From a virus: a stretch of 31,719 nt of DNA. Below the pieces are notes generated by a model, which was given only the letters and a program-made list of their open reading frames with translations, searched no databases and was not told where the DNA came from. Positions 4,851 through 26,892 of this stretch are shown piece after piece. Numbering within the stretch: the stretch's first letter is position 1; every line of letters starts with the position of its first letter. The translations under genes and the position numbers were made by a program. The stretch is from the IMG/VR virus record IMGVR_UViG_3300037042_002382, positions 1 through 31,719 of that record; one strand, given 5' to 3'.

Positions 4851-6658
4851 ATGCCGAGAATCAAGTCAATCCAGCGGTGCATCGCGGTCCAGAGGTCCGG
4901 CACCCAATCGTACATGCGGTCGTCGATGACAGCGCGTTGTCCTGGGTTCCCGAGGAGGTAGCCAGTCGTGAATTCGTTCAGCGTTTCCTGCTCGACCATG
5001 CCGACGTTGCCGGTTTTCGGCCAGTGCATATAGTCGGTTCGCTTGAAGTATGTCACGGCGTGACTGGCGCCCGAGGCGGGAAGGCGCCCGCCGGTCAGGT
5101 CGAAGAATCCCGCGCCGAACTGCCGGCCGACAGCAGCGTTCGAATCGAGCATGCCCTTCAACTGCTGTGCTGCTTTCTGCAGGTCCAGGACATTCTGCGG
5201 AAGCGGGGCCTTGCTACCATAGTTGAGGAGCTGTTTTGCCCATTGCAGGGGACCGGTGACGCCTCCAGTCTTTTCTGTCATAGTCCGGAAGGCATAGTCC
5301 TTGAGCTGTCCCATTGCCGCCTGGATTGCCTCGCGTGCCTGGTTCAACTGCGTGCCGTTGAGCCAAGTATTGCGCATGGTGCTCATGTCGTCGAGGACGT
5401 TGGCGAGGTAGTGGCCATATTCGTGGATCGACACGTCCAGCATGCCGGTCACGTTGGGGAACTTCGTCGGGTCAATGATAATCTCACCGCCATGCCCTTG
5501 CAAGTAATACCCGCCGCCACTGCCGCCGCTTCCTTTGGTCAGGGTCCACTTCGGACTTCCAAACTGCCCGACCATATGGTCCAGGCGAGTATGCATCTCG
5601 AGACGGAAGTTATCGGTTTTGATAGGAATCCAACCTTGCTTATTGAGGGCCTTCGCCATCTTGTCAAGTTCCTTATCGAACGCGCGAAGGTTGTCCTCGA
5701 TGTGCGCGTCCTGGAATGCCTGCTCGAGCTGGTCATGCGTCACGGGTTTCTGGACAGGGGCGGGTGCCGGTTTCGGCGCAAGCAGACTGGCGAGGTTGAT
5801 GCCGCCTCGGGTCCCGAGGGGATTCTCACCGTACTTCTTGTCGAGGAAGGCTTTCATATGTGCTTGTGTTGGCTCCACAGGACGGGTGTTGCACTGGCAC
5901 CAGGGATGATAGGGCGGCATGTCCGGCCACTCCAGGGGAACGACCCGTTCGTCGAGGGGCTGCGGTCCGATCGCCTGGCCACATTTTTCGCAGGTGATGT
6001 CGGCTGTCGAGCTTCGGGAGAGTCGGACTTCTTTCACCACGCCAATGGTTTTCCAGACTTCCTGCTGCGCGACGATGCGATTCCTGCGAAGTTCCGTAGC
6101 CCACAGCCGGCGCATGTTGTACTCCATGCTCGCGGCTCCTTTTTCGGTCAGGAGCCCGGCGAGATCCGCTTTGACCTTGTTGAAGGGAATGCCTTGCCTG
6201 CTGGCCGCCTCGATGAGACTGAGAGCCTGGCGCTGGGCTTCGTCGCTGATGCGCCACAGACTCTCGCTGAGGCTGTGCCACTGGGCTCTGCTGGCCTCGA
6301 TAGTTTTCCACATCTCTGCGTCCCAGGTCGTGTTGAAGAGCGCCGTCAGAGAGAAGGCCCCAGGGAGGAGGGTGCGCTGATGTCCCAGCTTGTCGATGAG
6401 CGGTTGCAGCTCTGCGATGTTCTGTTGCTTCAGGCGTTCGATGATGGCCTGGATGTCCTTATTGAGTTTGTTGCGCGTCTGCAGGACCCACGTATACCGG
6501 AGCTCCTCTGCTGCATTGCGGGCGACCTTGTAGTTGAAGGCCGCGCCACTCTTGCCGACGAGCAGGCCGGTCAGGTCGTTGAGGTATCCTTTCGTGGCCG
6601 CGTCGGCGCTGATGAAGGCGCCGGAGGCGATGTCGTTGAGTGGTCCGGTGTGTGGCAT
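4847..6658 (-). CDS. MuF/SPP1 gp7-like minor head protein fused to HExxH metallopeptidase domain
   Basis: This is a two-part protein of 603 residues. Residues 1-265 match the phage head morphogenesis (Mu F, SPP1 gp7) type: helical, ending in a metal-binding patch with C223-x2-C226 and HPWCQC at 251-256. A Pro/Ala-rich linker at about 293-306 follows. The second part carries HEYGH at 412-416, a zincin active-site motif (two His ligands plus catalytic Glu), and a later Glu in NEFTTGYL around 561-568 that could be the third ligand, as in gluzincins. MuF proteins are known to carry C-terminal effector domains and some are packaged and ejected with DNA. The substrate is unknown: maturation protease or injected effector are both possible. 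Confidence 0.8.
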   Translation of the reverse strand: MPHTGPLNDIASGAFISADAATKGYLNDLTGLLVGKSGAAFNYKVARNAAEELRYTWVLQTRNKLNKDIQAIIERLKQQNIAELQPLIDKLGHQRTLLPGAFSLTALFNTTWDAEMWKTIEASRAQWHSLSESLWRISDEAQRQALSLIEAASRQGIPFNKVKADLAGLLTEKGAASMEYNMRRLWATELRRNRIVAQQEVWKTIGVVKEVRLSRSSTADITCEKCGQAIGPQPLDERVVPLEWPDMPPYHPWCQCNTRPVEPTQAHMKAFLDKKYGENPLGTRGGINLASLLAPKPAPAPVQKPVTHDQLEQAFQDAHIEDNLRAFDKELDKMAKALNKQGWIPIKTDNFRLEMHTRLDHMVGQFGSPKWTLTKGSGGSGGGYYLQGHGGEIIIDPTKFPNVTGMLDVSIHEYGHYLANVLDDMSTMRNTWLNGTQLNQAREAIQAAMGQLKDYAFRTMTEKTGGVTGPLQWAKQLLNYGSKAPLPQNVLDLQKAAQQLKGMLDSNAAVGRQFGAGFFDLTGGRLPASGASHAVTYFKRTDYMHWPKTGNVGMVEQETLNEFTTGYLLGNPGQRAVIDDRMYDWVPDLWTAMHRWIDLILGI

Positions 6659-6659
6659 G

Positions 6660-6995
6660 CTAGATGCGCTGCGGCTCGACGATCCAGATGACCCACTTGG
6701 GCCAGGTATGCCTCAGCGTCCCGTCGGTTGCGGTAAGTTCCAGGTCGTAGAAGCCAGCATTCAGGAGCTCGGACCCGTAGATGACGACCGTGGCGAAGCC
6801 GTTCCCGTTCTGGACGACGAGGGTTGTTTTCAGTGGGTCCGGCGCCTCTGTGATGGCCTTGACCACGTCGAGTTGCCCAAGTGTCGCGGTCGCTGTCCAG
6901 GGCCCTCCGCTGGTTAGGTCGAAGGGGACGAGGTCTTTCGTGATCGGGCACGTCATGGCGAACGTGTCGCCGCGATGGTACAAATACTCAGCCAT
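6660..6995 (-). CDS. Small beta-sandwich structural protein, putative
   Basis: This 111-residue protein has an RGDT motif at residues 8-11 and alternating beta strands, ending in a TLRHTWPKWVIWIVEP stretch. The shape recalls the N-terminal Ig-like domain of BppU-type baseplate proteins (RGDTF near the start, DLT in the middle, Trp-Pro near the end). GGAGG precedes ATG 6995, and the gene overlaps the end of the repeat-protein gene by 8 bases. I infer a virion surface component or a partner of the repeat protein. The family link is by general pattern only. Confidence 0.5.
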   Translation of the reverse strand: MAEYLYHRGDTFAMTCPITKDLVPFDLTSGGPWTATATLGQLDVVKAITEAPDPLKTTLVVQNGNGFATVVIYGSELLNAGFYDLELTATDGTLRHTWPKWVIWIVEPQRI

Positions 6996-8883
6996 TGGAC
7001 ACCTCCAGGGTGCTGACGAAGTTGTGTGCTTCGGTTGTCGCCACGAAATCGCGGGACTCGAGGGTTGTGGTGATCGTCGACGGAGACAGAACCGTCGTCA
7101 AGTCGCTGGCCGCCAGCCGTGTGGTGTAGTCGCTTGATGGCAGGAGCCGGGTGTAATTCCAGAACAGGGTTCGCCACGCCGAGATGAGGGTTGCTGCGAT
7201 TTGCTTTGTGGACTTCCAGGCGCTGATCAGGGAGGTGGCTACGATGGTCCGGCTCGCATACGTCGAGACGACCTGGGCTGCCACCTGGGCTTTGGTCCGG
7301 TACGCCGAGATAAGCTGCGCGGAAACGGCCACACCGAGAGAAATCGACTTGTATGTTGACACCAGCGTCGCGTAGACAAGGTTCCGCGCCTTGTATGCGG
7401 AGGCCAGCGTTGCGGAGGCAATCTGGCGGGCCCTGTACGCAGACGCCAGTGTCGCTGCCGTGATGGTCCTGGTCACGTAGGTCGAGACGACTTGAGCTGA
7501 GATGGTCGCCTTGCTCTTGTATGCGCTGACGAGGGTTGCGATGACCTGTCCCGGCGCCGCAAGAACTTTATATGCTGAGACAAGGGTAGCGGCGATCTGG
7601 TTCACGGTCTTGTAGGTGGACTGTATTGTTGCGCTTGTGATGATCCTGCTCTTGAAGGCGGATATGAGTTGCGCTGCTGCAATTGCCCGCGTCTTGTAAG
7701 CCGAGGCGACCTGCGCCGCGATGCTCACGGCACTCTTGTAACTACTGATGAGGGTTGTTGCCACCTGGTTCATGGTTTTGTAAGCAGAGACGAGTGTGGC
7801 ACTTGCGAGGTTCCTGGCCTTGTAAACGCTTTCCAGGGTCGCTGCGATGATCGTGCGGGAAATATAGGTCGAGGTCAGTGTGGCCGAGGCGATTACGCGA
7901 CTCTTGTAGGCCGAGGCGACCTGTGCGGCGATCTCCACTCTGCTCTTGTACGCGCTGATGAGTTGCGCGGTCGTCGTCACCCTGCTCTTGAACGCGCTCA
8001 CGACCTGAGCAGAGACTTCCGTCATGATGACCAGAACCTTGTACGCTGAGACAAGGGTAGCGAAGATAATGCTCCTCACCTTGTAGGCACTTGCGAGTGT
8101 GGCGTCTGCCAACTGGCGAGCCTTGTATGCGGAGATTGCTTGTGCGGACGCTATCGCCCTGCTCTTGTAGGCACTCAGGACTTGTGCCGATGCGATGACT
8201 CTGGACTTGTAGGCACTGATTGCCTGTGCCGATATGACGGCTTTGGACTTGTAGGCAGAGATGACTTGAGCAACGGCAATCCGCTGCTCCTTGAACAAGG
8301 CGACGACCATGCCCCAGTCGTCAGCCGCTATGGTGAATCCTGCCGTGACCGTTCCAGAAGAGGCAATCAGTCCGTACTGGGCAGCGGCGATATACGCGCC
8401 CCAGTCCTTCGTGTCGAGTGATGTGTGTGTCCTTGCCGATGGAACGGAGAGACGTCCATCTCCAAGAATCTCCACCATGACGTCTCCTGCGATGGAGGCA
8501 CTTGGAGTGAGAGACGGGTCGGCGGTTGTGGCAGCGTTTCCTGTCGCAACATCAAGGACGGAACGATAGCCTGACTGGGCCTTGTAGGTTGAGATGACCC
8601 CCCATACGGAGACTGCTCCGCTGTTCGGAATGGACAGCGTGTGGGACGCTCCTGTCGGAGGCATGAGGAGATACCAGAGTTCGGCAAAACACTCTGTCAC
8701 GCCACGAGTGCTGTCCGCTTGAGTAAGGTCGATGCCGTCATAGGTCGGCGTTCCTGTTCGTGTTGACGCATGGGCAATCGTGAGAACGAGTACCGTTGTT
8801 CCTGCACCGCAGGTATAGGCTTGGGTGACAGGGTTGGCGGTACTCGCCGATATGGTTGCCGAAGTATCGAGCGTATGAGCCAT
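6988..8883 (-). CDS. Long repeat protein, putative virion fibre or decoration protein
   Basis: This 631-residue protein has three parts. Residues 1-204 are a Ser/Thr/Gly/Ala-rich beta domain, probably lectin- or Ig-like. Residues 205-577 are 26 tandem copies of a 14-residue unit (consensus like AQLISAYKSRVIAS; three copies have 17 residues). Residues 576-629 are six copies of a 9-residue unit (pattern x-hydrophobic-x-T-x-L-x-x-S). There is no signal peptide, cysteine pair or enzyme motif. The gene sits between portal and minor head protein, where accessory virion genes are sometimes inserted. A fibrous surface protein is the best guess. The start ATG at 8883 lies just after the preceding stop and has only a weak ribosome site. 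Confidence 0.7.
   Translation of the reverse strand: MAHTLDTSATISASTANPVTQAYTCGAGTTVLVLTIAHASTRTGTPTYDGIDLTQADSTRGVTECFAELWYLLMPPTGASHTLSIPNSGAVSVWGVISTYKAQSGYRSVLDVATGNAATTADPSLTPSASIAGDVMVEILGDGRLSVPSARTHTSLDTKDWGAYIAAAQYGLIASSGTVTAGFTIAADDWGMVVALFKEQRIAVAQVISAYKSKAVISAQAISAYKSRVIASAQVLSAYKSRAIASAQAISAYKARQLADATLASAYKVRSIIFATLVSAYKVLVIMTEVSAQVVSAFKSRVTTTAQLISAYKSRVEIAAQVASAYKSRVIASATLTSTYISRTIIAATLESVYKARNLASATLVSAYKTMNQVATTLISSYKSAVSIAAQVASAYKTRAIAAAQLISAFKSRIITSATIQSTYKTVNQIAATLVSAYKVLAAPGQVIATLVSAYKSKATISAQVVSTYVTRTITAATLASAYRARQIASATLASAYKARNLVYATLVSTYKSISLGVAVSAQLISAYRTKAQVAAQVVSTYASRTIVATSLISAWKSTKQIAATLISAWRTLFWNYTRLLPSSDYTTRLAASDLTTVLSPSTITTTLESRDFVATTEAHNFVSTLEVSNG
6997..7158 (-). 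repeat. Six 27-bp (9-residue) tandem repeats
   Basis: The C-terminus of the repeat protein is made of six 9-residue units: NYTRLLPSS, DYTTRLAAS, DLTTVLSPS, TITTTLESR, DFVATTEAH and NFVSTLEVS. Each has a hydrophobic residue at position 2, Thr near 4 and usually Leu near 5-6. The units are degenerate at DNA level, so the array is old and kept by selection on the protein. Confidence 0.65.
7153..8271 (-). repeat. 26 tandem 42-bp (14-residue) repeats
   Basis: The array encodes 26 copies of a 14-residue unit with the near-invariant core S-A-Y-K, in which Tyr is at times Phe or Trp and Ala at times Thr. Copies 6, 17 and 22 are 17 residues long, extended at their ends (TEV, APGQ and similar). Units begin either A-Q or A-T-L and the two types are mixed along the array, which suggests repeated duplication and shuffling of blocks. 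Confidence 0.85.
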
Positions 8884-10865: not shown

Positions 10866-12066
10866 CTCCCATGCCGAATGCTTTCCTCACGAATGTGTAG
10901 ACCCAATACCGGATTCCGTCGAGTGTGTGGTCCATCCACTTGACCGGGTCCTCCAGGACGATCCCGTTGCGGTCCTGCCGGTGCTTGTAGGCTTGGACCT
11001 CACGGATGACGTTGACGCATCGAGAGTGGATGTGGAGGCGGAAGCCCTGGACGTAAGTGATGCCGTCGTAAACCGCTTTTTCGGCGCCGTAGACCTCGAA
11101 GCCTGCCTGCTCAAACTCCTCCAAGCGAGCTGGTTCTGCGCTGTCACCGACCGTCGGCAGGTCCTCCCAGCCGATCATGTCCTGATGTTCGCGTACCTGA
11201 GCCATGAGCTCTGCGTTTGTCAGGTGCGTCTGGTAGACTTCGTCGACGATGTAGAGGTCTTTCTCTTTCACGCCGATAAAGACGGCCGCACTCGGGTTTT
11301 CCCAGCCGAAGTCGAGCCCGAGGCCGGTCATGTCATACCAGTCTTGCGGGTGTTCGAACTCCTCGACCGCATAGTTCTTGTAGATGATGTTTTCCAGGGC
11401 GCCCCACTCACCGAGGCAGTAGACGCGATACGTGTTCGGGTCCTGCTCTGCCAGGGCCTCCAGGGTTGCCGCGTACTCGGGGTCGAGGAAAATGTTGTCA
11501 TGGTAGGTCTTGTGGACGCCCATCATGGTATGGTCGATCTCGACCCACTTGTGCAGCCAGTGCCCGGCGTCGACAGGGTTGAAGGTGGCGATGAGTTGCC
11601 GGTAGGAACCGCCGGTCATGGGACGCCCTCGCAGGCGGAGGACGATCTGCTGCATCTCATCTTCACTGAGCTCGGTTGCTTCCTCAATCCAGATGGCGCT
11701 GATGTCCGTGAGCGACTTGATGCGCTCTGCTGCACCGCCGGCGGTGTTCACGACCGAGAGGAAGATGATCTCGCTGTCGCGGATGTGCATGGTCATGTCA
11801 GCCTGGTTGAAGGTGTAGGGCACATGCCATTCGGCAAGTGTCTCGAGGACCATGCGAAGAGCTGTGAGTTTGAGCGATGGCATGGTTTTCCGGATCACCA
11901 GGATGCGCTCGTTGTGGTACAAGAGGCAGCGCAGCACGTGCTTTTGTGCGGTTGCTTTGCTCTTGCCGGCTGCCGCGCCACCATAACAGGCAACAAGGCG
12001 GGCTCTGTTTTTGAACAGGTCCGCCACGAAGCTCGGGTTGATGGTGCTGGCAATCCGGATGTCCAT
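10852..12066 (-). CDS. terL: Terminase large subunit, PBSX type
   Basis: This 404-residue packaging motor has an N-terminal ATPase and a C-terminal nuclease. Walker A is CYGGAAAGKS (27-36) and Walker B with catalytic Glu is ISAIWIEEATE (122-132). Motif III-like TFNPVDAGHW lies near 161-170. The RNase H-like nuclease shows D252 in GLDFGW and D308 in VGDSAEP as likely metal ligands. The start ATG at 12066 shares one base with the stop of the small-subunit gene. This enzyme cuts concatemeric DNA and pumps it into the prohead through the portal. The call is secure; the PBSX-like subgroup is by resemblance. Confidence 0.93.
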   Translation of the reverse strand: MDIRIASTINPSFVADLFKNRARLVACYGGAAAGKSKATAQKHVLRCLLYHNERILVIRKTMPSLKLTALRMVLETLAEWHVPYTFNQADMTMHIRDSEIIFLSVVNTAGGAAERIKSLTDISAIWIEEATELSEDEMQQIVLRLRGRPMTGGSYRQLIATFNPVDAGHWLHKWVEIDHTMMGVHKTYHDNIFLDPEYAATLEALAEQDPNTYRVYCLGEWGALENIIYKNYAVEEFEHPQDWYDMTGLGLDFGWENPSAAVFIGVKEKDLYIVDEVYQTHLTNAELMAQVREHQDMIGWEDLPTVGDSAEPARLEEFEQAGFEVYGAEKAVYDGITYVQGFRLHIHSRCVNVIREVQAYKHRQDRNGIVLEDPVKWMDHTLDGIRYWVYTFVRKAFGMGGGNV

Positions 12067-12506
12067 CAGTCGTCGCCCTTACTCGGGACAATGGCTGCGT
12101 CGATGATGATGTTGATCGGTCCAGGATTGCCTTCGTTGTCGGGTCCTCTCCCGGGGACAGCGATGGCGTAGGGCCGGCCGAAGCTATCAGGGCACATACG
12201 TTCGAGCCACCAGGCTGCTGCTTGCCAGGACCCGCCGTCGGCAGCTTTCTGGATGACCTTGATGCGGGTCAGGCGAGCGATAGAGCGCGCCTTTTCCAAC
12301 TGGGCAAGGAATGCCAGATAATGCACGTCGTTTTTGGTCACCTTCGATGCTTTCTTGTTGCGAGCTAGGTTGGCACCCATTTTCCAATAGGTGATCGTCT
12401 GCTGGTCAACGCCAATCAGCTCTGCTGCGTAGCGTTCCGGCATGCCCTGGCTGACGGCACCACAGAACTGACTGCTCATCTCCTCAGTCAGCATCGTTTT
12501 CCTCAT
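12066..12506 (-). CDS. terS: Terminase small subunit
   Basis: This 146-residue protein would recognise phage DNA and present it to the large terminase. I use ATG 12506, which overlaps the stop of the methyltransferase gene as ATGA; the longer frame would intrude into that gene. An N-terminal helix-turn-helix is seen at about residues 20-45 (GMPERYAAELIGVDQQTITYW, cited here as residues 20-40), followed by a helical oligomerisation region and a disordered Gly/Pro tail. The helix-turn-helix of the kind 'aelaGVsqqTiyyW' together with the immediate terL neighbour makes this a strong call. Confidence 0.85.
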   Translation of the reverse strand: MRKTMLTEEMSSQFCGAVSQGMPERYAAELIGVDQQTITYWKMGANLARNKKASKVTKNDVHYLAFLAQLEKARSIARLTRIKVIQKAADGGSWQAAAWWLERMCPDSFGRPYAIAVPGRGPDNEGNPGPINIIIDAAIVPSKGDD

Positions 12507-13909
12507 GGGACGACCTCGCTGTGTTTCCGAGGTTTGTTGGGCAGGCGTCTCCTCTCCTCTGCTGGAACAGCCAGTCGGGTGGAGTTGTCGCTTGCCAGTT
12601 GCGCTTTCCCGCCGGTCAACTTTTCCCAGCGCTTGACGATCGCGTCGCAATAGCGCGGGTCGAGTTCAATGCCACGGCAGGAGCGGCCGGTCCTCTCACA
12701 TGCTATCAACGTCGAGCCGGAGCCGAGGAAGCCGTCGTACACAATGTCACCGACCCTGGTGCTGTTGTGGAGGAGGCGTGCAGGGAGGGCGACGGGCTTT
12801 TGTGTGGGATGGATGTACTCTTTTGCAGGATCGCGCTTGATTTCGATCATGCTTGTGGCCGCGTCGCGGTACAGATTGGTCAAAATGGTCAATAACTCGA
12901 CCTTTTTGAGACTGGCGAGGTCCTGTTCCTGGTATTCGAGGACCGTTTTCTGGCACCGGTCGCCATACCACTCACAGTTCGCGCTGGTCCGCACGGCGTA
13001 GATGAGGGCTTCGTGGCTCCAGTGATAATCGCTGCGTCCGAGCACCATTTGCTTGTGCCAGATGAGCTCCTGCTTCATCTTGAAGCCGGCAGCGTTCAGG
13101 GCGTCCTCAAACGGGGCCCTGCTGGTAGTGGCGTAGCAGATGTAGAGCGCGGGGTTGGGGACGGTCACGGGTCCCAGGGCTGTAAAGGCCCGTGTCAGGA
13201 AATCGCGCAGGACGTCGCCTCGGAGGTCATCGTTGGCAATGATGTCGAAGTCGGTGCTCTTGTAGCTCACGCCATACGGAGGGTCAGTGAACACGCACCG
13301 AGCCTGGTCCTCACCCATGAAGGCCGCGACGGTTTCTGCGTCAGTCGAGTCACCGCACAGCAGTTTATGGCGGCCGAGGAGATAGACGTCACCTTCCTGG
13401 GTGATGGGCTTGACGATCGCAGCAGCGACCTTGCCGGTGTCAAAATCATCTTCTTCATCTTCAGTCGCCAGCAGCTTGTCGAGGGCGTCCGCGTCGAAGC
13501 CGGTCAGGTCCATGTCGATGTTGCCGCTGTCCTGCAGTTCTTTCAGGAGGCCGAGCATCATCGGTTCATCGAACACGGCCAGTTCTGCCAGCCGGTTGTC
13601 CGCGATAAGGTCCGCATACTCGCTTTCCTCACTGTCGTAGTCCTGATAGTCGACAGGAACTTCCGGCGTGCCGAGGCGAAGGGCTGCTGCATAGCGACCG
13701 TGGCCGCGCACGATGAGGCCGCTCCTCTTGCTGACGGTGATCGGAGAGCGCCAGCCCTGGGCAGTGATGACTTTCGCGAGAAGGGTGATCTGACTGTCGG
13801 GATGTTGGTTGGGGTTCCTGGGGTTCGGCTGCAGCGTGTCGGTTGGGACGAGCTTGTCGAAGGCGCAGTAGACGGGAATAGTGCCGGCGGTGACGCGCGG
13901 TTCGATCAT
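12503..13909 (-). CDS. ParB-like nuclease domain fused to DNA adenine methyltransferase
   Basis: This 468-residue protein starts at ATG 13909, which overlaps the preceding HNH gene as ATGA. Residues 15-110 are a ParB/Srx-like domain with the box VRGHGRYAAALRLG around 67-80. After an acidic linker (EDEEDDFD) comes an amino-methyltransferase with motif IV DPPY at 209-212 and the AdoMet-binding motif FLGSGST at 394-400, in the order IV-I, which is the beta class. DPPY favours N6-adenine over N4-cytosine. Such fusions are common beside phage terminase genes and probably modify phage DNA to resist host restriction or to mark it for packaging. The target site cannot be read from sequence. Confidence 0.88.
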   Translation of the reverse strand: MIEPRVTAGTIPVYCAFDKLVPTDTLQPNPRNPNQHPDSQITLLAKVITAQGWRSPITVSKRSGLIVRGHGRYAAALRLGTPEVPVDYQDYDSEESEYADLIADNRLAELAVFDEPMMLGLLKELQDSGNIDMDLTGFDADALDKLLATEDEEDDFDTGKVAAAIVKPITQEGDVYLLGRHKLLCGDSTDAETVAAFMGEDQARCVFTDPPYGVSYKSTDFDIIANDDLRGDVLRDFLTRAFTALGPVTVPNPALYICYATTSRAPFEDALNAAGFKMKQELIWHKQMVLGRSDYHWSHEALIYAVRTSANCEWYGDRCQKTVLEYQEQDLASLKKVELLTILTNLYRDAATSMIEIKRDPAKEYIHPTQKPVALPARLLHNSTRVGDIVYDGFLGSGSTLIACERTGRSCRGIELDPRYCDAIVKRWEKLTGGKAQLASDNSTRLAVPAEERRRLPNKPRKHSEVVP

Positions 13910-20379: not shown

Positions 20380-21332
20380 TGCGCTCTCCTTTTGGGTGCT
20401 GCTGCTGCGATCTCAGCTTCGATAGCGTCAAAGGCGGCGTCCTGTTCCGGCGTCCGTTCATAGGTCCCTTCGGGAACTTGCTTCGGTTGGTTCACCCACT
20501 GGGATTGTAGTCCGATCGGGTGTTTGTAGAAGTCCTGCAGGGTAACTGCAGTCGGGGAGCTCTCGGGCTGGTTCAGGTACCGATCGAAGTTGGCCGGCCG
20601 GAAGAGACTCACGGGGTCGAGGTGTTTGGCGAAGGCCGTGCCAGTCCACTCACGACACTTCTTGTCGATGACTCGCTTGGCGTCGGCGACGCTGTAGGTT
20701 GGGATGCGTTTGCCGTCCTGGAGCGTCGTCTCTGCGAGGCGGGCAGGAATGTCGCCAGGGTTGCGGAACTTCTTGCCGGTCCGCTGGTTCAGGTAGGCGA
20801 GGACGTCCGCTGTCTCGGGACTCATTGCCTTCCGTTCGGGCGTAAACGTTTTTGGCTGGTCCGGTGTGGTGTCTGGTACCGATTTCGGTAACGGTTCCAA
20901 AGTGGACAATATCTTGTTCTTGTCTATTGACTCTTGTGTGTATATTGAGGGTGCGGATTTCCGTACCAGATTGGGTACGGATTTCGGTACCAGATGGGGC
21001 GCTGGTACGGATTTCGGTACCAGTTGCCATTGCTCTGTTTGCTTGTTGACGGCGTAGGTTCCTGGCTTTCTGGTACGGATTTCCGTACCAGATTTGAAGA
21101 TGACCCTGCGGTCGACGAGGCGAGTGATGGTGTTGATGACGTGGCGCTTGTTCAGGCCGGTGCCCTCGACGAACTGACTGAGGGGGATGGTGTCCACTGG
21201 TTTGTTCCAGCCGAACGTTTTCCGGATAATGAAGGCCAGGACCCGTGCCTCATATCCGCTGAGCTGCATCCTGGCGCGTGCTGTCTCGATGGCGGTGGGT
21301 AGTTTCAGGAAACTGTCCTGTGGCTCATCCAT
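20376..21332 (-). CDS. Lambda O-like replication initiator containing the origin
   Basis: A 318-residue initiator. The start is ATG 21332, with AAGGGA 9 bases upstream; a longer open frame to 21521 crosses a structured leader and the preceding gene, so I reject it. Residues 10-80 hold a winged-helix DNA-binding domain typical of phage replication O proteins (TFGWNKPVDTIPLSQF then GLNKRHVINTITRLVDRRVI). Residues 81-155 are a Pro/Ser/Lys linker coded by the iterons (LVPKSVP repeated). Residues 170-255 resemble the conserved C-terminal domain of phage replisome organiser proteins (LAYLNQRTGKKFR). It would bind the iterons, melt the AT-rich stretch and hand over to the DnaC-like loader. Confidence 0.85.
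   Translation of the reverse strand: MDEPQDSFLKLPTAIETARARMQLSGYEARVLAFIIRKTFGWNKPVDTIPLSQFVEGTGLNKRHVINTITRLVDRRVIFKSGTEIRTRKPGTYAVNKQTEQWQLVPKSVPAPHLVPKSVPNLVRKSAPSIYTQESIDKNKILSTLEPLPKSVPDTTPDQPKTFTPERKAMSPETADVLAYLNQRTGKKFRNPGDIPARLAETTLQDGKRIPTYSVADAKRVIDKKCREWTGTAFAKHLDPVSLFRPANFDRYLNQPESSPTAVTLQDFYKHPIGLQSQWVNQPKQVPEGTYERTPEQDAAFDAIEAEIAAAAPKRRAQ
20875..21090 (+). repeat. Putative replication origin: five 19-bp iterons plus AT-rich segment
   Basis: Five copies of a 19-bp imperfect palindrome (consensus GGTACGGATTTCSGTACCA) lie at 20875-20893, 20950-20968, 20974-20992, 21004-21022 and 21072-21090, all inside the initiator gene. The outer arms GGTAC/GTACC form the dyad. Between the first two is a 51-bp stretch (20899-20949) that is about 67% A+T in GC-rich surroundings, a likely unwinding element. 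Four copies are read as LVPKSVP-like peptides and the fifth in another codon phase as SGTEIRT, so DNA sequence is what is kept. Arrangement parallels the lambda ori inside gene O. Confidence 0.8.
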
Positions 21333-22973: not shown

Positions 22974-23195
22974 CTACCGGCTGGTATAGCGGCCGGCTTC
23001 GAGCTGTGCGCTCGTAAGTCCGGTCAAGGTGGTGATGCGTTCCAGCCGATCGCCAGTCGGGATGGCGATGCCGGCGACATATCGCGACACCATGTTCTGG
23101 CTCGCGCCCGTCCTGACAGAGAGTTCGCGCTGACTCATGCCGTTCTTCTTCAGCCAGAGAGCCAGCGGGCTTTCGTAGTGCAGTTGTTTAATCAC
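22974..23195 (-). CDS. XRE-type helix-turn-helix regulator
   Basis: A 73-residue Cro-like protein with a helix-turn-helix at about residues 20-45 (MSQRELSVRTGASQNMVSRY) and a short C-terminal helix, no dimerisation domain beyond that. I place the start at GTG 23195, which has AAAGGAGG a few bases upstream; the longer frame starting TTG at 23210 would begin inside the ribosome site. It overlaps the 53-residue gene by 8 bases. A promoter with a repeated element lies 170 bases upstream, and a close copy of that element is in the promoter at 26337-26365, which suggests that this protein controls both. Confidence 0.8.
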   Translation of the reverse strand: MIKQLHYESPLALWLKKNGMSQRELSVRTGASQNMVSRYVAGIAIPTGDRLERITTLTGLTSAQLEAGRYTSR

Positions 23196-23349
23196 GACTC
23201 CTCCTTTCAACTTGCGGGTCCATGTCGAGCCCGTCCTGCTCTGCGGTCAGATCATCAACGATGTCCTGGAGCTTGCGGGCCATAGTGATGAAGCCCAACT
23301 GCTTGGCTTCCAGGATGAGTGCTTCCAACTTGCCGATCGCTTGTCTCAT
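23188..23349 (-). CDS. Small helical protein, first gene after internal early promoter
   Basis: A 53-residue protein starting at ATG 23349 with AGAGGAGG upstream. It begins MRQAIGKLEALILEAKQLG and is one or two amphipathic, possibly coiled-coil, helices with a charged tail. It is the first gene of the transcript from the promoter at 23367-23395 and is followed by the XRE gene with an 8-base overlap. A possible partner or anti-repressor of the regulator by position only. Confidence 0.65.
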   Translation of the reverse strand: MRQAIGKLEALILEAKQLGFITMARKLQDIVDDLTAEQDGLDMDPQVERRSRD

Positions 23350-23395: not shown

Positions 23396-23612
23396 GGGTG
23401 TCGAAGATGGCGCCGGCCGCTTCCAGGTCGTCACTGTCAACAGTGTCTGCGTCGACGGCCACGGGCAGGCGGTCCTGGCATGGCGTTTTGCAGTTCAGGC
23501 ATGCGACGATACAGCAGATCGCGCAGCGCTCGGGTTCGGGCGATTCGTCAGTATCGTCGGCGGCCAGAAGCATCGGAGAAAGGGCCCTTGCGGGCCCCTC
23601 TGTTCTGCTCAC
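23379..23612 (-). CDS. Cys-rich putative zinc-binding small protein
   Basis: A 77-residue acidic protein with a cysteine cluster at 30-45 (CAICCIVACLNCKTPC), enough ligands for one or two zinc ions or a ribbon. The start is GTG 23612, overlapping the preceding stop as GTGA. Its N-terminal coding region contains a GGGCCC-GCAA-GGGCCC hairpin (23582-23597) followed by TTTCT, which may modulate translation or transcription. The last codons overlap a promoter. The function is unknown. Confidence 0.65.
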   Translation of the reverse strand: MSRTEGPARALSPMLLAADDTDESPEPERCAICCIVACLNCKTPCQDRLPVAVDADTVDSDDLEAAGAIFDTLDKLW

Positions 23613-23839
23613 TTCACGCCGCCCAGGCAGACGCCGGTTCCGTACCAGTCACACTTGCGGCCGGTGCAGTGCGGGCACTTCACGCGCTTGGGATTTGCTA
23701 CCAGATCCGCGCCCGCTTTGCCGTCGACTTTGAGGGCGACATCGTGGAGGGCGGCGGTCATGGCCATGCCGAGGAGGTTGTTGATCGACTGTTTCTCTCG
23801 GGCGGTCGGTTCGTTGGCGTAAACGTTTTTGCGGTTCAT
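23609..23839 (-). CDS. Small protein with C-terminal zinc ribbon
   Basis: A 76-residue basic protein from ATG 23839 (AAAGGAG upstream; ATGA overlap with the preceding gene). A helical part is followed by a zinc-ribbon-like end CPHCTGRKCDWYGTGVC (residues about 54-70), with C-x2-C and C-x8-C pairs. Such short ribbons are common in phage early proteins that bind nucleic acid. The region coding for its N-terminus contains one of the GGCGTAAACGTTTT words noted as a finding. The function is unknown. Confidence 0.65.
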   Translation of the reverse strand: MNRKNVYANEPTAREKQSINNLLGMAMTAALHDVALKVDGKAGADLVANPKRVKCPHCTGRKCDWYGTGVCLGGVK

Positions 23840-24162
23840 GTGGACTCCTTTGCCGGCGTGCCGGCGAGTTTCTTTTTGCTCTTGGTGCCGCTTGCGTTCC
23901 AGAACAGTGCGACGAGCGCTCTGACTCTGTGGTACCATTTGCCCTCATCGCTGAGCAGATTGATGTCACAGTCGTGGCCGAATCTATGAAGCGTGTCCAG
24001 GTCCTCTTTCGGGAGCTGCGCTTTGATGAGCGAAGCGCAGAGGTATGCCTCATTGCCGGCGATGAGAAGTTCCCTCACACCATAGTCGTCGAGATGCCCT
24101 GTCATGCCATCCAAGACATAGGTGCTGTTGTCGATTGCGTGAACCTGATTCTTGTTGAGCAT
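23836..24162 (-). CDS. Hypothetical early protein
   Basis: A 108-residue protein with AAAGGAG before ATG 24162. It is mixed alpha/beta, acidic in the middle (DDYGVRELLIAGNEAYLCAS) and basic at the end (TKSKKKLAGTPAKEST). Two cysteines and three histidines are dispersed without a clear motif. No family is recognised. It is part of the early cluster read from the 26337-26365 promoter. Confidence 0.65.
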   Translation of the reverse strand: MLNKNQVHAIDNSTYVLDGMTGHLDDYGVRELLIAGNEAYLCASLIKAQLPKEDLDTLHRFGHDCDINLLSDEGKWYHRVRALVALFWNASGTKSKKKLAGTPAKEST

Positions 24163-26042: not shown

Positions 26043-26154
26043 GGTAGTCTCCTTTTGTTGCGGATGGTGTTCGTCGTCTCAGCGGGTTCAGGGTTCCCGT
26101 CTCCAGGAGCCCTCAGCCTGTCGGCTGTCGCGTCAGCGGTTCTGCTATCGATGA

Positions 26155-26189
26155 CCGGCCCCTTGCGCCGGATTCCGACCCTTGCGGGT
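26155..26189 (-). promoter_or_regulatory. Two GCAA hairpins in the early leader
   Basis: Read on the minus strand, ACCC-GCAA-GGGT (26178-26189) and CCGGC-GCAAGGG-GCCGG (26155-26171) lie next to each other in the untranslated leader of the early transcript. GNRA-type loops are typical binding sites for RNA-binding proteins or tertiary contacts. No boxA-like word is evident, so an antitermination role is only a possibility. The rest of the leader from 26043 to about 26330 holds no gene I can support. Confidence 0.35.
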
Positions 26190-26336
26190 GAGCGGATGGT
26201 GCCGCTGCTGTTGGTTTGTTTGGTCCGGTCCTGGCGTCCTCGGTTTCCGGTCGATCCTCGCGCTTGCCCGCTTGGTGGGGTCCGCTGCGCTTCTGGTTGT
26301 CAAGGTTCGTCTTGCGCTTGCTGCCTTGCTGACAGC

Positions 26337-26365
26337 AGTATATCACACAACCACCACCATTGGAA
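26337..26365 (-). promoter_or_regulatory. Putative early promoter with extended -10 and operator copy 2
   Basis: On the minus strand, -35-like TTCCAA (26360-26365), a 17-base spacer and TATACT (26337-26342) with TG one base upstream (extended -10). The spacer and -35 carry CACAACCACCACCATT (plus strand 26346-26361), close to the element in the promoter at 23367-23395. It would drive the small-gene cluster 26042-23379. The poor -35 and the repeat array upstream are compatible with activation by a protein. Confidence 0.6.
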
Positions 26366-26410
26366 GGGCTCAATTGTGGAGAAGCATACACATTTGAGGT
26401 CGAAAGAGCC

Positions 26411-26667
26411 CAAGACAGGCTCAACGGGCGTTGACACAGGTTTCGCATGCTTGTCGCGTTTCATGTGAGAACGTCCAAGACAGGCTCAACTCCTCACGAA
26501 GAACGGCGACGCCACGACAAGGCTTGCCAGGCTCATCTATGGAATAAGGCCCGCGACAGGCTTGTTTACTGACGAAGCCCCACAACAGGCTCCACAGGCC
26601 CCACAGCGGGCGCAGCCCAAGACAGGCTCTGCAGGCCGCGTCATGGGTGACGTCTCGCACAAGGCTC
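26411..26667. repeat. Array of about eight degenerate repeats upstream of the early promoter
   Basis: The core CAAGACAGGCTC (plus strand) or close variants start at 26411, 26476, 26514, 26552, 26581, 26618 and 26656, with a weaker copy at 26432. Spacings from 26476 on are 38, 38, 29, 37 and 38 bases, so not multiples of three. On the minus strand the best copies read GAGCCTGTCTTGGGCT, a small AGCC/GGCT stem-loop. Half units (GCCTG) precede several copies. The stretch has no convincing gene. Function unknown: regulatory binding sites, packaging site or secondary origin are possible. Confidence 0.6.
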
Positions 26668-26688
26668 TGCAGGCTCGTCTGCGCCTTA

Positions 26689-26773
26689 CTACCTGGCGGT
26701 TGCTCTTTTCTGCTTTCGTGCTAGCGTATTGATGTCGGGTCCCATTCCAGGTGCCCTCCTTCACGGACCCGAC
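26689..26773 (-). other. Hairpin with ribosome site in its loop and an 18-codon ORF
   Basis: GTCGGGTCC (26734-26742) and GGACCCGAC (26765-26773) form a perfect 9-bp inverted repeat with a 22-base loop. On the minus strand the loop contains AAGGAGG followed 9 bases later by ATG (26743-26745), which opens an 18-codon frame, MGPDINTLARKQKRATAR, ending in TAG at 26689-26691. This could be a leader peptide or a translation-controlled element; it may also be chance. Confidence 0.3.
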
Positions 26774-26778
26774 CTTAT

Positions 26779-26836
26779 GGCCCTGGCTCCGGTGAGGAGT
26801 TCTAGATCTCGCGGGTTCGACTCCCGCCCAGGCCCA
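26779..26836 (+). other. tRNA-like element lacking the anticodon arm (possible attachment site)
   Basis: A perfect T-arm (GCGGG-TTCGACT-CCCGC, 26811-26827) is followed by CCAGGCCC, which pairs with GGCCCTGG at 26779-26786 with a single mismatch. CTCC-GGTGA-GGAG (26787-26799) resembles a D-arm. Only 11 bases remain between D-arm and T-arm, so there is no room for an anticodon arm and it is not a functional tRNA. The 3' half of tRNA genes is a common phage integration target, so this may be a phage attachment core. No integrase is in the window. Confidence 0.4.
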
Positions 26837-26837
26837 A

Positions 26838-26866
26838 ATACAAAACGGCCGGCGTGATCCCGGCCG
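26838..26866 (-). terminator. Rho-independent terminator after the lysis genes
   Basis: On the minus strand CGGCCGG (26860-26866) pairs with CCGGCCG (26846-26852) around a 7-base loop and is followed by TTTTGTATTT. It lies 27 bases after the stop of the last lysis gene and ends the late tail-lysis transcript. On the plus strand the same stem is followed by CTTCGCTTTT, so it may work both ways. Confidence 0.85.
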
Positions 26867-26892
26867 CTTCGCTTTTCCTATCCTGGCTTGCG

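Follow-up and report, generated by a model that had tools for sequence, protein, structure and literature searches.

At divergent promoters of the plasmid pLS20, the Xre-family repressor RcoLS20 binds grouped copies of a short motif, co-operatively and with looping of the DNA; its operators comprise seven plus four copies of an 8-bp motif, mostly in one orientation, arranged around these promoters (PMC4207663). The two promoters overlap, and one of them drives the repressor gene. The Apl operators of coliphage 186 are seven short direct repeats between the major promoters pR and pL; the individual sites measure 6 bp, are 10-11 bp (one turn) apart, lie between face-to-face promoters, and are bound by an excisionase (PMC7498355). 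The operators and stoperators of cluster A mycobacteriophages are 13-bp asymmetric and oriented repressor sites that are spread over the genome and are recognized by a two-domain repressor of ~180 residues (PMC9283540). Origins of the lambda O type contain iterons, which are likewise direct repeats in a phage genome.

An array with features of these systems was analyzed in the virus record IMGVR_UViG_3300037042_002382, of which the entire stretch of 31,719 bases (positions 1 to 31,719) is referred to here as the window; its main genes are carried by the minus strand. The array consists of seven same-orientation copies of the core (C)AAGACAGGCTC at 26407-26676 (plus strand). As in pLS20, many like-oriented copies of a short motif are located between two promoters, which were in this case predicted by conservation, and the window and both relatives described below each encode a helix-turn-helix (HTH) protein as a candidate binder. 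However, motif and spacing differ from those of RcoLS20, and one of the promoters would drive a candidate small RNA, whereas its pLS20 counterpart serves the repressor gene. Like the Apl operators, the array is a set of seven short direct repeats between two promoters, but its sites are 29-65 bp apart, its promoters diverge, and no integrase is present; an assignment to the Apl/Cox-type RDF operators was rejected because one-turn spacing is absent and the only close pairs are doublets 9 bp apart. The asymmetric and oriented word is shared with the stoperators, but here the sites are confined to a single cluster of 270 bp, and the sole HTH protein is 78 residues long. A stoperator system was also rejected, since a window-wide search found perfect copies of the word in the array only, in place of the genome-wide dispersal of those sites. 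Unlike the lambda O-type origins, the window has a separate set of iterons, of a different sequence, within its O gene. The likeness to RcoLS20, together with the lack of Apl spacing and of stoperator dispersal, placed the locus among operator arrays with a candidate binder. With moderate confidence, we read it as a cluster of protein-binding sites, either an operator or an enhancer-like strip, that would regulate the two divergent promoters between which it lies.

The array is real and goes beyond chance. The AGGC anchors of its copies are at 26417, 26482, 26520, 26558, 26587, 26624, and 26662, and second AGGC words are found 9 bp downstream of four of them (26529, 26596, 26633, and 26671); copies 3 and 7 read ACAAGGCT. 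All six occurrences of CAGGCTC on the plus strand of the window are inside the array. Six places in a 321-bp stretch match one 11-mer with at most 2 mismatches, a number that 200 dinucleotide shuffles did not reproduce (at most 4). Elsewhere in the window six matches were obtained only in a codon-repeat tail gene near 8.0 kb, and a few other stretches, among them the O-gene iterons, reach five. The original prediction, derived from the letters of the window, had placed the array at 26411-26667, and its actual extent is slightly wider. The seven clear copies that it listed are present, whereas the relatives have no AGGC at the position of the additional weak copy between the first two of these. 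The proposed spacing of roughly 38 bp applies to four of the six intervals (37-38 bp), which randomly placed sites achieve in 0.09% of simulations, but it is not uniform, the AGGC-to-AGGC distances being 65, 38, 38, 29, 37, and 38 bp.

The comparison set comprised three genomes, two of which, the window and IMGVR_UViG_3300036979_000499 (G001; 36,284 nt), are close to each other (~96% DNA identity). Searches with the terminase, endolysin, and O protein identified G001 as the sole close relative. The ends of its contig overlap by 130 bp with 99% identity; although the record is classed as linear, this overlap makes it probable that G001 is complete, with a circular map of ~36.15 kb, in which case the window lacks ~4.5 kb of the tail region. 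The third genome, IMGVR_UViG_3300046703_000088 (L029; 10,289 nt), is a diverged fragment that ends short of its terminase; it was retrieved via a two-copy DNA pattern and then recognized by the spacing pattern of its sites. Both G001 and L029 were also retrieved with an early protein as the query. Two other matches to the two-copy pattern, L021 and L024, were discarded, as they have another repeat context of 12- and 36-nt tandem repeats, and the remaining matches inspected contain just one or two spaced copies. A search for the capsid protein in bacterial genomes and a homology search of the region against cultured phages retrieved no match.

The whole region is present in G001, where the array shows no indels, and the seven sites are common to all three genomes. 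In L029 the sites are spaced by 65, 38, 38, 29, 38, and 29 bp, the left half of the array aligns with that of the window over 150 bp without an indel, and the word AAGACAGGCTC is unchanged. Between the window and L029, identity amounts to 83% in the cores and 66% in the intervening DNA, a comparison in which the cores are biased upward and the Fisher p value of 0.003 is only approximate, since L029 was found by an exact match to the word and neighboring bases are not independent. L029 differs from the window in its replication initiator, its recombinase, its lysis-side genes, and its first early genes, but it keeps the array, both promoters, and the candidate RNA. The repeats, whose absence would have spoken against the original prediction, are retained in both relatives that have the same leftward promoter.

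This pattern bears on the idea that the array is a replication origin or a second initiator-binding region, which would be in line with the resemblance of direct repeats in non-coding DNA to iterons. The likely origin iterons are, however, five copies of TCTGGTACSGATTTCSGTACCAGA within the gene of the O-type initiator (20875-21094); these are palindromic, unrelated to the array word, and equally spaced in G001. They are absent from L029, which has an initiator of another family and keeps the array nonetheless, and no skew change is seen at the array. We consider an origin function very unlikely; the maintenance of the array in L029 despite the exchange of the initiator and of neighboring genes argues against it and for a control element.

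The sequence comparison supports the notion that the array region is non-coding. A protein-coding repeat was rejected because substitutions in the ungapped block are evenly distributed over the codon phases (8/10/9, 5/6/7, and 5/4/4) and no frame favors synonymous changes, the non-synonymous ones being more frequent in every frame; a real early gene from the same genomes, used as a control, has an excess at third positions (6/4/11). CRISPR arrays have near-identical repeats of about 23-47 bp and unique spacers. A CRISPR array was likewise rejected, as only ~10-14 bp are shared between copies and the DNA between the copies is conserved among the relatives. The original prediction, which offered no mechanism, had dismissed a repeat protein and CRISPR alike, and both judgments stand. 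In contrast, its claim that each copy is able to form an AGCC/GGCT stem-loop is wrong: exact AGCC...GGCT arms exist in three of the seven copies (1, 5, and 6), and the array does not fold better than shuffled sequences on either strand (z scores of -0.8, -0.9, +0.3, and -0.7). The same data weigh on the suggestion of a functional repeat RNA, in which the array would be transcribed and either titrate proteins or RNAs as a sponge, serve as a type III antitoxin, or yield a cluster of small RNAs. The ~38-bp periodicity and the small hairpins possible in some copies are compatible with such an RNA, but, besides the absence of excess folding, the copies lack the near identity that type III antitoxin repeats should show and both recognized promoters face away from the array, which makes this reading highly improbable.

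The original prediction overlooked that the array is situated between two divergent promoters. These outward-pointing promoters are predicted from the sequence and appear conserved in the three genomes; their hexamers were recognized by eye and by conservation. The leftward early promoter (26337-26365, minus strand) has a -35 hexamer TTCCAA (26360-26365), a 17-bp spacer, and a -10 hexamer TATACT (26337-26342) that is preceded by TGA, corresponding to an extended -10. A consensus scan reported no promoter, so the leftward one rests on conservation, the counterparts in the same place being TTCCAA-17-TATAAT in G001 and TTGACG-17-TATACT in L029. The rightward promoter (26700-26727, plus strand; TGTGCTAGCGT) comprises TTGCTC (26700-26705), a 16-bp spacer, and TAGCGT (26722-26727), with an extended -10 TG at 26719-26720. 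It is weak by consensus when considered alone, and the orthologous place in L029 is occupied by TGTGCTACAAT, an extended -10. Measured from the early start, the array begins ~75 bp upstream and reaches to ~345 bp; its far end lies ~58 bp before the start of the small RNA. The leader of the early transcript (26043-26336, minus strand) contains stretches that are conserved in L029, namely, GGCGTCCTCGGTTTCCGGTC and GGTTGTCAAGGT on the plus strand, which read GACCGGAAACCGAGGACGCC and ACCTTGACAACC on the transcript strand, and the region may contain an antitermination signal or a different kind of leader element.

To the right of the array, a plus-strand small RNA gene of ~145 nt at 26734-26878 is well supported by the comparison of the three genomes. 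The candidate RNA is composed of a first stem, GTCGGGTCC/GGACCCGAC (TCGGGTCC/GGACCCGA), a variable structured middle, and a rho-independent terminator, and it folds better than shuffles in each of the genomes, most strongly in L029 (z scores of -2.1 in the window, -3.7 in G001, and -6.8 in L029). The loop of the first stem contains CCTCCTT (26755-26761), a complement of the Shine-Dalgarno sequence that is kept in 3 of 3 genomes. The terminator (26846-26876) is formed by CGGCCGG/CCGGCCG followed by CTTCGCTTTT, and G001 and L029 show an exchange of both partners of one base pair in its stem. The folding, the conserved loop, and this two-sided change support a rightward RNA unit. The original prediction had located the array between the early promoter and a late-transcript end; the latter feature fits the terminator of the rightward RNA better, because each of the three genomes retains the plus-strand U-run, while that of the minus strand is present only in the window. 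An Rfam search of the candidate RNA retrieved no family at gathering score, tRNA callers applied to it called no tRNA, and a search of the window for targets by duplex energy returned none that was convincing.

The middle of the RNA (26779-26834) is tRNA-like in the window and G001, with an acceptor-like stem, a D-arm-like hairpin (CTCC/GGAG), and a T-arm, GCGGGTTCGACTCCCGC, but no anticodon arm. A perfect T-arm and acceptor-like sequence to the right of the array, resembling the 3' end of a tRNA (26811-26837), raises the question of whether this is an attP, with the repeats as arm sites of an integrase. We find this barely conceivable: neither a tyrosine integrase nor a large serine recombinase was found in the window or in G001, which is apparently complete, G001 has a diverged version of the tRNA-like part and L029 another hairpin in its stead, and the tRNA-like end has no exact host match among 84,980 genomes.

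The array was stated to lie in the only long gene-free region of the window; it is indeed inside the longest region without protein genes, but this region very probably harbors the small RNA gene. The location in such a region could also fit a packaging site, a pac- or cosB-like element recognized by TerS, the small subunit of the terminase. Short repeats can make up such sites, and a TerS with a weak HTH_3 match is encoded (12066-12650). Nevertheless, the terminase genes are ~14 kb from the array, pac and cos sites usually adjoin or are within terS, and packaging would leave the two promoters unexplained. We regard a packaging function as distinctly unlikely.

Under the preferred reading, that of a regulatory array, a sequence-specific protein would recognize the asymmetric word AAGACAGGCTC, several copies would be bound together, probably in a co-operative manner, and the bound protein would set the activity of one or both promoters. 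Possible outcomes include the shutoff of early transcription or a switch between the early mRNA and the small RNA, the leftward output being a long early operon and the rightward output the ~145-nt RNA with its anti-Shine-Dalgarno loop. What is inferred here is that a protein binds at all, that its binding is co-operative, in which direction it acts, and what the binder is. The spacings of 29, 37-38, and 65 bp are not whole helical turns, which makes a neat filament on one face of the DNA unlikely.

Candidates for the binder are a conserved Cro/CI (Xre)-type HTH protein of 78 residues (22974-23210, minus strand) and a host protein. Among HTH_3 regulators, the former alone exceeds the curated cut-off in the window and G001, and its L029 ortholog is 58% identical, with an HTH_3 score just under the cut-off. 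Palindromes are the usual targets of Xre-type proteins, but of the seven copies, copy 1 (GAGCC-N7-GGCTC) alone is well matched to this form across the three genomes, which counts against the HTH protein. In addition, in an alignment to the recognition helix of the 434 repressor, which we take as a guide to the specificity positions, one of three such positions differs between the window and L029 (Q to E). The main alternative to the HTH protein as binder is a host factor, the array then being a strip for a nucleoid or transcription factor that senses the state of the host or draws the factor off the host chromosome. In favor of this reading, the word is the same in L029 while the recognition helix of the phage protein has changed at some positions; we nevertheless consider it unlikely.

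If the operator reading is right, an uncultivated phage lineage gains a readable two-output switch of transcription, and a phage small RNA that has not been described, with a loop that blocks ribosome-binding sites, is predicted. More tentatively, and with considerable doubt, the array, both promoters, and the anti-Shine-Dalgarno RNA may constitute a single portable unit of control in a lineage that apparently lacks an integrase; a protein on seven sites would choose between the early mRNA and an RNA that blocks ribosome-binding sites, and the unit would persist while surrounding replication, recombination, and lysis genes are swapped.

Some further observations were made in these genomes. At L029:6954-6964, directly before the start of the minus-strand gene at 5867-6952, there is an 11-nt perfect complement of the loop of the L029 RNA, GATACCTCCTT, which may merely be a strong Shine-Dalgarno sequence at this ribosome-binding site. 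The window and L029 share a small protein with a CPHC...C...C motif (23609-23884, minus strand; 93% identity), for the L029 ortholog of which no PHROG was found and which is a possible zinc-binding nucleic-acid binder. Lastly, the protein encoded at 6988-8883 (minus strand) of the window contains many tandem ISAYKSR-like repeats of ~14 residues each, corresponding to a 42-nt DNA repeat.
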